Source: Methanolobus sediminis (GTDB taxonomy: Archaea; Halobacteriota; Methanosarcinia; Methanosarcinales; Methanosarcinaceae). From it: a stretch of DNA of 64,000 bases. This document shows, one piece after another, positions 17,431-24,920 of the stretch (positions are counted from its first letter, which is position 1; every line of letters begins with the position of its first letter). The position numbers and the translations under genes are program-made. The stretch lies in the NCBI RefSeq assembly GCF_031312595.1, contig NZ_CP133592.1, forward strand, positions 310,001-374,000, given 5' to 3'. A model generated the notes under the pieces. That model was not told the DNA's origin. It worked only from the letters and a program-made list of their open reading frames with translations, and made no database searches.

Positions 17431-18432
17431 TCAAGATAGGGACTTAATACATTTTAAACCAACCATTGCAACTTTTTTTCTGGTCGCTGAATGAACCTTC
17501 TCATATCTCCCAAAGTTCACCATTTCCCCACCAAACCTTCTTTTAAACTCCCTGACACCATAAGGCTTATCTGGATGACCTGCACCTCCAAAATCAAATA
17601 CCTTGTACTTTCCAGCATTCTCTTTCAGAATCTGCCATACAAGTGCCTCATCAACATAATCAACCCCTTGCTTAGACCCTGCATACCAGTCATAAACTAT
17701 ATCTTTATAGTTCAATGTTATTCTCGTGCCTATGGCTTTATTGTCCTTCAAGGCAATGAAGAAGTCTGCATGCCCCTTGGAAACAAGGGAATCATAAGCA
17801 GTCTCAAAAAGAGAGATATCGGCTATTGGGATCTTGAAGCGCCTATAGGTTTCAAGTACCAGTTCATAGCAGGCACAGACTTCATCTGAGTTTTCCACTT
17901 TCCGGACAACTATCCCATTTTTTTCAGCACGGTTTATACCTTTCCTGCGGGACTTGTGGATGCCACTCCATATCTCATCTTCCTTCCGGTCAAGATCTAT
18001 CAGAAAGTCCAGATGCTGATCGTACTCAAAACCCAGAGAGTCAAGTCTTTGCCTTGAATCACTCGTATCCCACATGTTACGAATCTGCGTGTAAACAATG
18101 CTGCCACCAACAAGCGTATTATAGTGTTTTAAGAGAGAAACAACAGCCTCCAAGCCCTTTTGAGAATCCTTGAAAAGAGGGCCTCCTTGTATTACTGAGC
18201 GGGATGAGAACTTTGACAGCAAACCCTGCATCTCACTGATTATAGCACTCTGTAGGACAGCTAGAACCTCACCATCGTCTTCATCAATTGCCATTAGAGA
18301 TATCGACTCATAGTTCTTTGTCCGGTTGAACACATCAGCAATCATCGTGCTCTGGAAAATATTTCCCTTTGGATGGGAAAGAACGAATGCATCCCACTCA
18401 CCTTTTTCAAAAGAATCCGTTATTTCAATCAT
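17431..18432 (-). CDS. FemAB/GNAT-fold peptidyl- or acyltransferase-like protein
   Basis: 333-residue protein resembling the FemAB-related GNAT superfamily proteins found in bacterial exosortase/EPS loci (lipid II:glycyltransferase-like). Seen: WDAFVLSHPKGNIFQST at the N-terminus, SGIHKSRRKGINRAEKNG in the middle (residues about 158-175) and the C-terminal KVFDFGGAGHPDKPYGVREF with FKRRFGGE, all typical of this group. Archaea lack murein, so a role in attaching an amino acid or acyl group to a glycan is inferred. ATG start; 45 bp before DUF354 and 22 bp after the deacetylase-like gene in the leftward train. Confidence 0.8.
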   Translation of the reverse strand: MIEITDSFEKGEWDAFVLSHPKGNIFQSTMIADVFNRTKNYESISLMAIDEDDGEVLAVLQSAIISEMQGLLSKFSSRSVIQGGPLFKDSQKGLEAVVSLLKHYNTLVGGSIVYTQIRNMWDTSDSRQRLDSLGFEYDQHLDFLIDLDRKEDEIWSGIHKSRRKGINRAEKNGIVVRKVENSDEVCACYELVLETYRRFKIPIADISLFETAYDSLVSKGHADFFIALKDNKAIGTRITLNYKDIVYDWYAGSKQGVDYVDEALVWQILKENAGKYKVFDFGGAGHPDKPYGVREFKRRFGGEMVNFGRYEKVHSATRKKVAMVGLKCIKSLS

Positions 18433-18454
18433 AGAAAGACTCCGTTATCTTGTC

Positions 18455-19246
18455 TCAACCAACCGTCTTCCTGTACCAGATAATACCGGCTTTCCCTATA
18501 TTCTTCACATTCTGCATGACCAGCTCCTTTGTCCACCCATACATACCGTCGCACCACCTGTTCGGGTGGGCGAGTATGCAAATCTGCCTGAACTCTTCAC
18601 CTCTGATAAGACAGATGACATCATCCGTAGACCTCACATCTTGAGTGAGCCGAGTGTTCATACTGTCCTGGGGAGAATCAAGCACGTCCTTTACACGAAT
18701 GTTCCTGTCAGCCCATGTCCTGCCCGTGTCCGTCAAGTAGAGTACCTGTGAGTAGTCTAGAGAGAAATACGGTTCACCTATTATACCAAATTCCCTGAAA
18801 TCATAGTCTGCCCAAAGGTCCCTGTTAGACCATGAAACCAAAGGATTACCATGCATGCAGGCTGTGCTCACATCGGCATATCTACGCAGGTCTCCAAGTT
18901 CATTTTTGAAGATTTCCAAGGCTTTCTCTTTGTTTCCTTTCGCTTTATCCATGACCTCATAATGGAAGCCAACCTCATGACCAAGTTCAGCGACCTCCTT
19001 TATTGCATCAGGGATGAAAACATCCTTCACATGCCTGAAATAGTACGTGGAACTTATACCAAACTCATGCTCGAGACGTGCCATTTTAAGGTTCCTTTCT
19101 ACTGAACGATCTACATCATGACGCAGTATTATGCACTTACCTTCAGGAGCTTGCTGTAGATAATTTCGCACATTTGTTGTGCTATATGCACTGGCACATA
19201 TAGCTTCCAATAACTCTTTGTAAATGGATAATGTAAAATCTCTCAA
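18455..19246 (-). CDS. Polysaccharide deacetylase-like (NodB superfamily) protein
   Basis: About 263 residues with LRHDVDRSVERN (the Asp-Asp/His metal region), ELGHEVGFHYE (His motif) and CILAHPNRW near the C-terminus, the pattern of carbohydrate esterase 4-like deacetylases, including the group beside exosortase loci. The frame extends to an ATG at 19321 (288 residues), but the extra 25 residues look unlike the family, and a GGGGGT ribosome site sits seven bases before the TTG at 19244-19246, so that start is preferred; the ATG remains possible. First gene of the leftward 12-gene train, divergent from the archaeosortase gene. Confidence 0.8.
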   Translation of the reverse strand: MRDFTLSIYKELLEAICASAYSTTNVRNYLQQAPEGKCIILRHDVDRSVERNLKMARLEHEFGISSTYYFRHVKDVFIPDAIKEVAELGHEVGFHYEVMDKAKGNKEKALEIFKNELGDLRRYADVSTACMHGNPLVSWSNRDLWADYDFREFGIIGEPYFSLDYSQVLYLTDTGRTWADRNIRVKDVLDSPQDSMNTRLTQDVRSTDDVICLIRGEEFRQICILAHPNRWCDGMYGWTKELVMQNVKNIGKAGIIWYRKTVG

Positions 19247-19346
19247 CGTTATTACCCCCAATGAACACAAACTTATGCTATTAAGTTTCTCAAGTAAGAA
19301 AAACCTTACCTTTACATACATAGCAAATAAAAAATAAGTATAACAA

Positions 19347-19431: not shown

Positions 19432-20256
19432 ATGCATGATGAAAACAAAAACATAATCATTATTCTGTTAGTACTCGCACTTTTCACGGGGGCAACAATA
19501 GAACTCAGTGAAGGTTCTACCGCAATTGGCGTAGTACTTTTCATAATAGCTGCAATCCTTATCACAAGAATGAAATTAAGAGGAGATGAAGGATTACAGA
19601 GTTCAAGAAACTTCATGCTTATAGGTGGTTTCATACTAGCTGCAGATCTCATATATAATTATGTGAACAGCAGTGAACTGGGAACACTAGATTCAATGGT
19701 CTTTTTCCTTGGAATATCATTGATTGCAATTGGCACTGGGAAGAAGGATATTAAACAACTTGGAGAATTCGGATTATATATATCCTCTGTATTCACCGGA
19801 CTATACTTGATATTCTATTCATTCTTCGGATATTTCAATATTGATTTTCTGCATCTCTTTGACCATTATCTTGTCCTTATGCCAACTGTGGCAATTATAA
19901 AATTATTTGGAATACCTGTTGAGATAATAGCCACTGAAACAGTTATACTTTACGGAGCCGAAACCATGACTATCACAATCGGCGGACCCTGTTCTGGCCT
20001 ATACTCAATGTTCCTGCTTATCGGCATTGTAGCCGGCTACTCAAGAATGGAGAAAATGGATATAAAAAGGACATTTGGTTTGTTGGTCTTTGCGGTTCTT
20101 ATCGCATATTTTGCTAATCTCATCAGGGTCATCATACTCTACATCACTGCATACTTATATGGAATGGACATTATGATGATAGTCCACACACATGTAGGCT
20201 GGATGATATTTGCTGCCACTGCCGGCGCCATCATGTATATAATTAATAGAAAATAA
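19432..20256 (+). CDS. artC: Archaeosortase, ArtC-like (exosortase superfamily)
   Basis: 274-residue integral membrane cysteine transpeptidase-like protein with about eight helices. The catalytic residues of the exosortase/archaeosortase superfamily are visible: Cys in GGPCSGLYSM near residue 185, Arg in ANLIRVIIL near 231 and His in HTHVGW near 252. Archaeosortases cut secreted proteins at a short C-terminal tripartite signal and probably join them to a lipid. A PEF-CTERM protein is encoded at 24408-24920, which points to archaeosortase C, the PEF-CTERM subtype; the subtype is inferred from this neighbour. Divergent to the glycan train, and 20 bp from the convergent two-TM protein gene. Confidence 0.85.
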   Translation: MHDENKNIIIILLVLALFTGATIELSEGSTAIGVVLFIIAAILITRMKLRGDEGLQSSRNFMLIGGFILAADLIYNYVNSSELGTLDSMVFFLGISLIAIGTGKKDIKQLGEFGLYISSVFTGLYLIFYSFFGYFNIDFLHLFDHYLVLMPTVAIIKLFGIPVEIIATETVILYGAETMTITIGGPCSGLYSMFLLIGIVAGYSRMEKMDIKRTFGLLVFAVLIAYFANLIRVIILYITAYLYGMDIMMIVHTHVGWMIFAATAGAIMYIINRK

Positions 20257-20515: not shown

Positions 20516-21427
20516 TTAAACCTCAACTCCATCCAATCTTTTTCTAATTAGTTTTTCCTGACGTATGTCAGCATCTACTTCGGCAATGGCCTTCAAACGT
20601 GCTGCAAGATCTGGCTTCATATCAAAGAAAGAGAGATGAATATCGAAAAAAGACTTGACCTTAACAGGATTTATGACATACAAATGAACATGCCCAGGGT
20701 TAAAATACTCTATGGAATTAAGAAGTATATCATTATGCAATCTCTTTAGTGCAGAAGATAACACAGCTTTATTCTTCATTACCTTTACAACTTCAACATC
20801 AGCTTTTGATGTTAAATCTGAAGCACCGACATAAACAATAAGGGAACATGGTAGCATAACAATACCCATAACAACAAACCGTATGAATTTTGGAATAAGA
20901 TCATCCTCCTGGCCAAAACCAGTGAGCATAGCTACCCATAAAGCAATGGTCGATAATGAGGCAATGATACCTGCAACCATTGCCACAAACGTATTCTGAG
21001 CTACATTACCCTCTTTTATGCGAGCCAGTTCTCTGGCGAAGATTATTTCCAGCTCATCATCCCCCAGAAGATTCATCACTCTTCTGGAAAAAACAATATG
21101 AGATCTCTTTTTAGAACCCACTGTAAAAATCACCGGAACTGATGATTCAAATAAGTGAATTTCAGGCCTTTCCACAGAAAAGGTACCTGCAAGGTGATCA
21201 AGAATCTTGTATATTTTTGTAAATTCGCCTGATGGTATATCCATGCACCCATACCATTTCAGAATTAGACGTGGGGATGAAAGATAGACCAATCTGCTCA
21301 TTACCAGAATTATAACAAAACTCACGATTCCTAAAACCAAACCTCCCAAGTAAAAAGCGATTGATACCGCAGGCAGAGTGATTATAATAAACAGAAGATA
21401 TATCCAGATATTTTTCTTGATGAACAT
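20516..21427 (-). CDS. M48-like membrane protein lacking the HExxH zinc motif (pseudopeptidase)
   Basis: About 303 residues. The layout is that of M48 (HtpX/Ste24-like) membrane peptidases: two N-terminal helices, the PEIHLFESSVPVIFTVG region, SRRVMNLLGDDELEIIFARELA, a further helix pair, and a C-terminal MKPDLAARLKAI that corresponds to the family's HPP-x-x-x-R-I motif. The zinc-binding HExxH is RELAR here (residues 132-136, codons at 21020-21034), so both histidines are arginines and the third ligand region (KADVEV) is also altered. It is therefore probably not a protease. ATG at 21427 is preferred over the GTG at 21436 because GTGA lies five bases upstream. Confidence 0.75.
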   Translation of the reverse strand: MFIKKNIWIYLLFIIITLPAVSIAFYLGGLVLGIVSFVIILVMSRLVYLSSPRLILKWYGCMDIPSGEFTKIYKILDHLAGTFSVERPEIHLFESSVPVIFTVGSKKRSHIVFSRRVMNLLGDDELEIIFARELARIKEGNVAQNTFVAMVAGIIASLSTIALWVAMLTGFGQEDDLIPKFIRFVVMGIVMLPCSLIVYVGASDLTSKADVEVVKVMKNKAVLSSALKRLHNDILLNSIEYFNPGHVHLYVINPVKVKSFFDIHLSFFDMKPDLAARLKAIAEVDADIRQEKLIRKRLDGVEV

Positions 21428-21574
21428 CCCTCTCACATATAATTAAAGTTTTTTTAAAGATGATATACAATGGCACCCTATACTTATATATTTTAGCAAA
21501 TAATTACATTCAATCTATTAAATATTTCATTCATATTTCATAACCAAGATAACTTTCAAGGATCAAGTGAATAA

Positions 21575-24292
21575 ATGTTTGGCAAAAATAAATGCAGATA
21601 TACTCAGGATCTGAAAATAATATACTTGATATCATTGCTATCACTCGTGTTTATCCTGATTCCGCCTTTCAGTGAAACCCCATTAAGGATACCTTTTGCA
21701 TTAATCTTGATCTTTTTTGTACCAGGGTATGCATTTATTTCCGCCATGTTTCCGGGAAACCGGGAAATCTCAGGAATGGAAAGATTCACACTAAGCATTG
21801 GTTTTAGTATTATTATTATGGTTTTTGATGGATTTCTCATCAGCCTTACTGTGTGGAAATTCAGGCCAAATTCACTTACCATTTCACTTGTGTTGCTCAC
21901 ATTCATATTTGGAGCCGTAGCTCATCTGGCGAGGAAACGCCTTCCACTAGAAGAGCAGTTTTATTTTTCATATAGAGATTTTATCCATTCCCTAACAGCA
22001 CCGGAAACATGCAACATTGATGAGGAAGAGGAGGAGATTTGCTACGACGAGAACATGGAAGACAAAAAGTTTGCTGCCAAAAACAGGAAAAAGATTTCCT
22101 CTATGCAAAAACCAGCAAAGAACATGAAAAAACCTGCGTTGCAAATCAGTGAAAAATTACATCCTAAAATCACAAAGACCCTCATAATAGCAATGGTGCT
22201 TTCAATCATCGTTGCAGGCTCAATGTTTGCCTATGCAAAAGCCACCAGAGAAAAAGAGGCTTTCACTACACTTTACATACTTGGCCCTGACGGTAAAGCT
22301 GAGAATTATCCAGAGAACTTCTCAACAAGTGACCCTATTCATATTATTGCAGGCATCGAAAACTTTGAGTATGCACAAGAAAACTACACACTTGAGATTA
22401 TTCTGGATGGGACTACACTTAACACAATGGAAATTACTCTTGATTACAAAGAAAAATGGGAGAAAGAACTTACTATAGCTCCTACTGAATTAAAGCAGGG
22501 CAGGCAGAAACTACAACTTGTCTTGTTTAAGGATGATACTGAAGGAAGTTCTTACAGGTCGGTTCACCTTTGGGTTAATCAGGTGATTAGCAGTGAACCT
22601 GTCCTGACTAAAGAAAATGAAGTCATCGACTTTACTAAAATAATTAATCCTTCTATGGACACAGATGATGGCTGGGAGTTCACAACAACGAACGAAATCA
22701 TGGCAACAGGATATTATATGAATGGATCTGGCATATACTCATCAAGGGCATTTATTATCAATGCAAGTTATGAGGGCATGGCTGACCAGTTCACCACCAC
22801 ACTACAACAGCTAATCCACAGCAATGAATCCGCCAATGTGATCCTGTCATGTTACATTAAAGATACATACACCAAAGGCAAAGCTGATAAGGAGGAGACC
22901 CGATATAAGAGAATAGTATTCAATAATGAGCTTATATGGACCGACGGCATTAATGGGGACGAGGGATGGCAACATATTCAGGTGCCGGTTACACTAAAGG
23001 AAGGTAACAACACCCTTTCCATTGCCCTTCTTCAAGGAAGCCTTCAGACAACGTATCCGGTTGAAATGATAATAGATGAGGTCACGTTCATGCCGGAATC
23101 AGCTTTTTCACCATATGTAAGAGCAGACAATACAATTGAATTTGAACTTCCGGTATCAAAAGTATCACCACTTTCGAAAACAAGTGATACCAAGTTTACT
23201 GTTGAGTGGAATGGAACTGACACCGGATCCGGAATATATTATTACGACATACAATATTCTATAAATGGAACCACATGGAAGAACTGGTTAACAAAAACCA
23301 CAATGACTTCTGCAGAGTTTGAAGGAATGGAAGGAGTGACATATTACTTCAGGTCTATAGCCGTTGATAATGCACTCAATAAAGAAATGGAGAAATCAAC
23401 ACCTGATACTAGTACTACCATTGACACTTCTGCACCAACGATCGAACTGGACATCACACCAAATCCTACAAGTGATGTGACATACCTCACAGTGGAAGCT
23501 AACAAGCCGCTTCTATCAGTAAAATGTATTATCACTCCCCGCAATTTCGGTTCAGTGGAAAACGTAAGACTTGCTACTACAGATAATATCACATGGACAA
23601 GTAAGTATACAATCGAAGTGCAGGATACCTATGATATTGAGATAATTGCTAAAGATTATTCTAACAACACGGCTTACACGTTTGGTACCTTGTACACAGA
23701 TGAGACTCTTGAAGAACTTAACATTGATTTCGAGCCAGAAAAAACATCGGATGAGGTAAAGATAACCATTACATGCTCCACTGCACTGAAAGGGGAACCT
23801 ACAGTAGTTGTAAAGGACAGGTATGGTTACAAGCTAGAAGTGAATTTAGAAAGCTCAGATGATAATGAATATGTATACATTGCTACAACAGATGATGAGG
23901 ATTTTGATTATACAATTAGAGATGGGATAGCGCGTGTAACAGTCACCGCAAAAACTCTTGACTCACTAACACTCTACGAAGAAGGCACTTTCATTATAGA
24001 CAGAGTAGATCCCACAATAAAAAGCTTCAGTCCTGATGATGACGAAACAGTAGAAACTGGTAGTCCATCCATCCAAGCATTATATTCAGATGACCGTGCA
24101 GGAATCGACAAAACAAAGGTCAAACTCTTGGTTAACGGAGTAGACGTAACGGATGTTGCGGATGTCGGGTATAGCTCTATATATTATGTTGCACAGGGAC
24201 TGGAAAATGGAAAAGTTGAAGTTCAACTTTCAGTAACCGATCAAGCAGGTAATACAAAAGAGGAAGAATGGACATTCTATGTATCAATATAA
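21575..24292 (+). CDS. DUF1616 membrane protein with large extracellular Ig/FN3-like region
   Basis: 905 residues. The first 120 carry four membrane helices with the VPGYAFISAMFP motif of DUF1616, then a charged loop (about 145-195) and a fifth helix (about 201-221). Residues 225-335 are the DUF1616 outer domain. Beyond that are a sugar-binding-like beta domain (about 345-500), a fibronectin type III-like module (about 515-610, with the TVEWNGTDTGSG turn) and further beta-sandwich repeats to the end. There is no PEF- or PGF-CTERM tail. DUF1616 proteins occur often beside archaeosortase genes, so a role in envelope assembly or substrate presentation is likely. ATG preceded by AAGTGA at normal spacing. 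Confidence 0.8.
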   Translation: MFGKNKCRYTQDLKIIYLISLLSLVFILIPPFSETPLRIPFALILIFFVPGYAFISAMFPGNREISGMERFTLSIGFSIIIMVFDGFLISLTVWKFRPNSLTISLVLLTFIFGAVAHLARKRLPLEEQFYFSYRDFIHSLTAPETCNIDEEEEEICYDENMEDKKFAAKNRKKISSMQKPAKNMKKPALQISEKLHPKITKTLIIAMVLSIIVAGSMFAYAKATREKEAFTTLYILGPDGKAENYPENFSTSDPIHIIAGIENFEYAQENYTLEIILDGTTLNTMEITLDYKEKWEKELTIAPTELKQGRQKLQLVLFKDDTEGSSYRSVHLWVNQVISSEPVLTKENEVIDFTKIINPSMDTDDGWEFTTTNEIMATGYYMNGSGIYSSRAFIINASYEGMADQFTTTLQQLIHSNESANVILSCYIKDTYTKGKADKEETRYKRIVFNNELIWTDGINGDEGWQHIQVPVTLKEGNNTLSIALLQGSLQTTYPVEMIIDEVTFMPESAFSPYVRADNTIEFELPVSKVSPLSKTSDTKFTVEWNGTDTGSGIYYYDIQYSINGTTWKNWLTKTTMTSAEFEGMEGVTYYFRSIAVDNALNKEMEKSTPDTSTTIDTSAPTIELDITPNPTSDVTYLTVEANKPLLSVKCIITPRNFGSVENVRLATTDNITWTSKYTIEVQDTYDIEIIAKDYSNNTAYTFGTLYTDETLEELNIDFEPEKTSDEVKITITCSTALKGEPTVVVKDRYGYKLEVNLESSDDNEYVYIATTDDEDFDYTIRDGIARVTVTAKTLDSLTLYEEGTFIIDRVDPTIKSFSPDDDETVETGSPSIQALYSDDRAGIDKTKVKLLVNGVDVTDVADVGYSSIYYVAQGLENGKVEVQLSVTDQAGNTKEEEWTFYVSI

Positions 24293-24407: not shown

Positions 24408-24920
24408 ATGAAGAAATTATTAGTGATACTAGCAGTTTTTGCTCTGTTTATAGGGACTGCAGCAGCAAACCCATACAATGGAGCAATTTATACAGAGGAC
24501 GGTTCAGCAGAAGCACCAAATAATATTATTATTCAGCCCGGTGAAACACAAACATACAGCTACTATGGAGTTAGTTTCACAGCTCCAAACCTTGTCCTAG
24601 AATATCATGCAACAGTATACCCATTAAATGCAGCTGCACAGGCAAGTGATATGACAGTGACATTTGCCCATCCAAATATGGAGCCAGGGCTAAATGACCC
24701 ATATATGGATTATGCGGTATTTACAGTTCATCTGGATGAAAATGCAAATCCAAATGGAGAATGGAGGATAGTCATATCAGCTGGTGACGCAAGCTCTGCT
24801 TCATCAGATTGGGGTTCCGCATCAAGAGACTTTGAAGTACCTGAATTCCCAACAATCGCACTCCCAGTAGCTGCAATCCTTGGTCTTGCATTCTTTATGC
24901 AGCGCCGCAAGGAAGAGTAA
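24408..24920 (+). CDS. Secreted PEF-CTERM protein
   Basis: 170 residues with a classic signal peptide (MKKLLVILAVFALFIGTAAA, cleavage near residue 20) and a C-terminal PEF-CTERM sorting tail: VPEFPTIALP near residue 142, a hydrophobic helix, then basic RRKEE. The mature part (about 120 residues) is acidic, beta-rich and rich in Asn, Ala, Ser and Tyr, without a recognised domain. Known members are processed by archaeosortase C, here encoded five kilobases away. ATG start with a strong AGGTGGT ribosome site and its own TATA box; a hairpin terminator follows the stop codon. It is the only such tail seen in the window. Confidence 0.9.
   Translation: MKKLLVILAVFALFIGTAAANPYNGAIYTEDGSAEAPNNIIIQPGETQTYSYYGVSFTAPNLVLEYHATVYPLNAAAQASDMTVTFAHPNMEPGLNDPYMDYAVFTVHLDENANPNGEWRIVISAGDASSASSDWGSASRDFEVPEFPTIALPVAAILGLAFFMQRRKEE

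Follow-up and report, generated by a model that had tools for sequence, protein, structure and literature searches.

Why does a methane-producing archaeon keep a membrane protease homologue without its active site beside the gene for a sorting enzyme? The question is raised by a gene at positions 20516..21427 (minus strand) of the window, by which we mean the whole stretch of 64,000 nucleotides analysed from Methanolobus sediminis (NZ_CP133592.1, positions 310,001 to 374,000). The gene encodes an HtpX-type M48 pseudoprotease of 303 amino acids (303 codons and a stop), a member of a subfamily linked to archaeosortase C (ArtC). A sequence-only reading had placed an M48-like protein in an archaeosortase locus without giving the strand; a plus-strand reading of the interval is ruled out by stops throughout. 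The placement holds. Pfam Peptidase_M48 (PF01435) matches the protein at 32 bits (cut-off 20.3), and the adjoining gene encodes ArtC (19432..20256, plus strand; TIGR03762, 346 bits). The NCBIfam HtpX models match at 40–93 bits, far under their equivalog cut-offs of 245–422.

Sequence profile and fold both mark the protein as M48/HtpX; the HExxH motif of the enzymes is absent. Its remnant, recognised from sequence and alignment, is RELAR at residues 132–136 (21020..21034, minus strand), with the codons AGA GAA CTG GCT CGC running from 21034 to 21020. The sequence-only reading had reported this position and the loss of both histidines to arginine codons, which are AGA and CGC; the flanking motifs are present, DDELE at residue 123 and KPDLAARLK at residue 271. 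The catalytic glutamate is retained as E133. The third zinc ligand, the Glu of ExxxD, is additionally gone (SDL-TSKAD, compared with SREFAADE in HtpX); its remnant, GASDLTSKADVEVV (20786..20827, minus strand), keeps the aspartate, D210. The C-terminal motif has KP where HP is usual. Active and inactive members alike carry an FNPGHVHL motif (here at 20681..20704, minus strand) in most lineages. Elsewhere in the genome M. sediminis has two ordinary HtpX paralogues with an intact HELSH, so the cell is not short of general M48 activity.

The M48 gene faces artC and is divergent from a conserved partner gene (21575..24292, plus strand) encoding a DUF1616 membrane domain and several beta-sandwich (Ig-like) domains. 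The predicted structure of this partner has N-terminal membrane helices, a helix at residues 197–223 and a chain of beta-sandwiches, in an arrangement of domains that is unreliable (pTM 0.44). Further along is a PEF-CTERM protein (24408..24920, plus strand), a predicted ArtC substrate; the genome has 13 PEF-CTERM matches, this one included. The catalytic Cys, Arg and His of ArtC itself are intact here and present in all 61 sequences compared. In the f5 sequences the invariant histidine is the one preceding a variable-looking His column (f and g codes denote families and genera of the compared genomes, G codes genomes and L codes loci).

Relatives of the M48 protein were collected with a subfamily profile, on which members score from about 270 bits up and ordinary HtpX from about 250 bits down within the class; this divide was set empirically and has a narrow margin, and a genomic link to ArtC or DUF1616 served as a second criterion. 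Among 239 genomes, 56 have both the M48 subfamily and a full ArtC (>200 bits), three have ArtC only (G005, G128 and G186), eight have M48 only and 172 have neither (Fisher p 6e-42, a value that ignores kinship). ArtC-like proteins of about 150 bits in f10 and G086 were excluded, as no M48 of the subfamily adjoins them. The M48 protein thus accompanies ArtC in 56 of 59 genomes, and in most of these the genes are closely linked, as is expected of a component of an ArtC module. Six of the eight M48-only genomes are fragmented, with several of the genes on short contigs, and G060 and G155 are real exceptions. In at least two classes the M48 gene also usually has a gene for a DUF1616+Ig surface protein beside it, and the trio of ArtC, M48 and DUF1616 is found outside the class in f11, f21 and f38.

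This neighbourhood permits a reading in which M48 serves the DUF1616+Ig protein, in its membrane insertion or turnover, and merely shares a locus with ArtC. In f2, f3, f4 and f21 the M48 gene and DUF1616+Ig are neighbours with a common orientation, in several cases overlapping or separated by no more than tens of bases, and in the f3 genome G106 these two genes are still together with ArtC about 12 kb off. However, the presence of ArtC predicts the M48 subfamily in nearly every genome that has it, and DUF1616+Ig accompanies ArtC too, so that the two links are inseparable on present data. We consider an exclusive tie to DUF1616 improbable. The module is nevertheless able to run without M48, since it is missing from G005 and G128, where ArtC and DUF1616 are present. 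In G005, which is a Methanolobus, the space between artC and DUF1616+Ig holds 607 bp (L054 4322-4928) with no long frame.

Named matches, from M. vulcani (77 and 73%) and M. profundi (62%), place the window in Methanolobus. HExxH is missing from all 18 Methanolobus orthologues, including those of three named isolates: PL 12/M and B1d of M. vulcani, and Mob M of M. profundi. Conserved loss of the histidines in orthologues next to artC is what the sequence-only reading had looked for, and lineages beyond Methanolobus show such loss too. It is therefore not peculiar to one genome, although many orthologues outside Methanolobus do retain the motif. In the subfamily as a whole (n = 74) HExxH is kept in 27 members and lost in 47. 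It is intact in g7, g11, g4, g12, G152, G095, G088/G096, G092 and most of f11/f38. Where it has been lost, the remnants differ by lineage: ARExxR, AREMFH, CExAK and LEVTK in Methanolobus, AREIGH or AREFGH in g3/g13/g8, [HYS]N[IL]VQ in f5, and YEIAH, YEIAQ, YEIAY and HEIAQ in f3. Genus g15 of f2 has HEMSR and HEMAL, G402 has HELVL and G259 has DMIVH.

On a tree of the 74 members and five outgroup rows, built with the motif columns removed, at least seven changes of HExxH state are required; this is an undirected parsimony count, and with several deep joins on long branches the exact number is uncertain. The outgroup and the early branches are intact, which gives the direction as loss. From the motif it appears that the ancestral member was probably an active protease and that the orthologues keeping HExxH outside Methanolobus probably still are, and since these are many, M48 probably first served the module as a protease. 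Within one gene neighbourhood the motif grades from HEIGH through REIGH to RELAR and CETAK, a natural record of a protease becoming a pseudoprotease.

Could the Methanolobus protein still be an enzyme, with another metal site or as a metal-free hydrolase built from E133, D210, H246 and D262? These four residues are 100% conserved in the 18 Methanolobus rows. Three of them (E133, D210 and H246) are common to the HExxH-bearing relatives, however, and need not form a new site, and the CExAK and ARExxR subclades differ from each other at the old ligand columns. Among the columns conserved in at least 90% of the Methanolobus sequences we recognised no replacement zinc motif, neither a displaced HxxxH nor a Cys/His pair. 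Continued catalysis in some other form therefore seems to us improbable.

The protein that remains has a confident predicted structure. In the AlphaFold model (pLDDT 89.4, pTM 0.85) the chain begins with a long helical stretch (residues 2–58) that holds two predicted membrane segments, and a turn at residues 169–176 lies between two long helices further along. Hydropathy agrees with this; four membrane segments are predicted in all. The best match among solved structures is Ste24p (Z 12.1, 205 aligned residues, 7.3 A rmsd), and ZMPSTE24, BepA, BlaR1 and the HtpX domain are further top fold matches. Direct sequence search against solved structures gave a marginal HtpX match alone (E 0.78). The protein resembles HtpX (MEROPS M48B) in its domain order, its four predicted membrane segments, its similarity of up to 93 bits and the presence of the HtpX domain among the top folds. 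It differs in having none of the three zinc ligands and in belonging to a separate, ArtC-tied subfamily with a DPAP-type outer turn and an FNPGHxH motif. The CAAX protease Ste24p/ZMPSTE24 (M48A) is longer, has more membrane helices and has the zinc site that the window protein lacks; the structural likeness carries no implication that the window protein cleaves prenyl proteins.

The turn between the third and fourth membrane segments (GFGQEDDLIPKFI, 20882..20920, minus strand) has the pattern GFGQxxDPAP and is predicted to be extracellular. In HtpX the proteolytic domain is on the cytoplasmic side (PMC9263693), and from this topology together with the charge distribution we infer that the turn faces outwards. 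No other stretch is as well conserved once the zinc site has gone. In the rows without HExxH the mean entropy is 0.91 bits for the turn, compared with 1.85 for the five motif columns, 2.2 for the region of ligand 3 and 2.02 overall; in the rows with HExxH the means are 0.57 for the turn, 0.67 for the motif columns and 1.70 for all columns. The contrast between turn and zinc site is suggestive only, as baseline constraint differs between sites of one protein. In the f5 lineage H246 is missing as well and little of the ligand-3 motif is left, so that the outer turn is the only broadly shared feature. In the two g3 genomes that have M48 (AREIGH) and in which no ArtC was found, G060 and G155 (L058 4901-5734, L099 5863-6696), the turn reads VFG[RK]ENNPIP rather than GFGQxxDPAP, as if its constraint had been relaxed.

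Constraint on the gene as a whole was estimated from pairwise dN/dS, by a simple counting method and with some dS values near or above 1. The ratio is 0.13–0.33 for M48 in Methanolobus, 0.10–0.23 for the HExxH-bearing g7/g11 pairs and 0.06–0.12 for ArtC in Methanolobus, so that M48 is somewhat higher than ArtC. These values support purifying selection on the reading frame after the zinc ligands were lost. They agree with the earlier suggestion that the protein is retained without its active site beside a sorting enzyme, whose own catalytic residues are intact.

A different account is that proteolysis by M48 is no longer needed, that the active site was the first part to go and that the gene is on its way out. 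The absence of the gene from G005 with artC and DUF1616 kept, an in-frame TAG in the G003 orthologue, a weak-looking non-AUG start and the varied residues at the lost ligands are all in keeping with such decay. But the frame is open in 17 of the 18 Methanolobus orthologues despite divergence to about 40% identity, the dN/dS ratios are low, the outer turn and the FNPGH motif are conserved throughout the genus, and the predicted fold is confident over its full length. Decay is in our view quite unlikely. A defect or sequencing error confined to the M. sediminis genome is ruled out by its 18 congeners. Very probably, then, the Methanolobus protein is not a zinc protease and is kept by selection; ligand loss is conserved in 18 of 18 and the frame is intact apart from the single TAG, the hallmarks of a pseudoprotease.

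The TAG in the G003 orthologue (L014 2101-2103) may be read through rather than breaking the gene. Methylotrophic members of the Methanosarcinales decode TAG as pyrrolysine.

What would such a protein do? To our knowledge, little has been established about how archaeosortases recognise their substrates, how these are handed over and which other proteins are needed. We propose that the M48 protein is a repurposed, non-catalytic component of the ArtC/DUF1616 surface-protein sorting module, a view for which the prospects of being right or wrong seem to us even. That its step is one of scaffolding or substrate holding is a more tentative suggestion, somewhat less probable. Binding or holding substrates for ArtC, in the manner of inactive rhomboids, is plausible by analogy; the DUF1616+Ig protein is just as possible a partner for M48, and in several families the two genes share a strand and abut or overlap.

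Under this proposal the M48 protein would be seated in the membrane with its former active-site domain in the cytosol. The GFGQxxDPAP turn would lie outside, on the side of the membrane where ArtC cuts, and would contact ArtC and/or the DUF1616 protein. The former substrate groove would grip or order the PEF-CTERM proteins, for example by their basic cytosolic tail. In the HExxH-bearing relatives the same protein may also degrade the C-terminal membrane peptide left by ArtC cleavage.

Pseudoproteases are a known kind of protein. The iRhoms and other rhomboid pseudoproteases offer a parallel for the proposed role, being membrane proteins of protease fold that act without catalysis on the trafficking or processing of other proteins; their fold is unrelated to that of the M48 protein. 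MamO of magnetotactic bacteria (PMC4794232) is likewise a prokaryotic protease homologue retained for a non-proteolytic role. It is a repurposed serine protease, of another family, and it binds metal, whereas the window protein has lost its metal site. A literature search, with the founding archaeosortase paper outside its coverage and an earlier mention therefore possible, returned no account of an M48 partner of ArtC or of archaeal M48 pseudoproteases of this subfamily. As far as this search shows, an M48 pseudoprotease as a recurring companion of archaeosortase is undescribed. A third conserved component that has repeatedly lost its own chemistry and still persists suggests a structural role, and it is a concrete candidate partner for ArtC.

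The start of the gene also appears unusual. In the stretch 21419..21432 (minus strand) a GAGGG box (21432-21428) is followed by a 6-nt spacer and an ATC (21421-21419), the last being the likely non-canonical start codon. The listed ATG (21427) comes immediately after the box, with the ATC two codons further on; the exact start is uncertain and relatives suggest the ATC. All 18 Methanolobus sequences have ATT, ATA or ATC 6 nt after GAGGG/GAGGT, in the column where G050, G049, G058 and G036 have ATG. In seven genomes (G009, G019, G002, G008, G060, G154 and G178) the first ATG, GTG or TTG comes at codon +23 to +44 or later, and a start there would remove the first membrane segment largely or wholly. 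At these loci an ordinary ATG is found near the 5' end of most ArtC and DUF1616 genes. The simplest reading of these alignments is that translation probably begins at a non-canonical codon, and if this is correct, the M48 gene would be shortened or overlooked by automatic annotation. A bolder extension of our proposal, rather unlikely in its full form, is that several archaeal lineages have each, independently, converted the M48 protease partner of this sortase-like system into a non-catalytic subunit presenting C-terminal sorting signals to ArtC, with its amount in Methanolobus held low by the conserved AUU/AUA/AUC start.

ATT, ATA or ATC 6 nt after GAGG[GT] is also seen in g3 relatives; the loci with this arrangement, those of Methanolobus and g3 together, are L004-L013, L015-L019, L021, L025, L031, L096 and L099. 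Beside artC, a gene for a FemAB-like acyltransferase and a gene with only weak Pfam matches (17431-19321, minus strand, in the window) recur at many loci of f1 and some of f2, and the conserved neighbourhood thus exceeds the trio.
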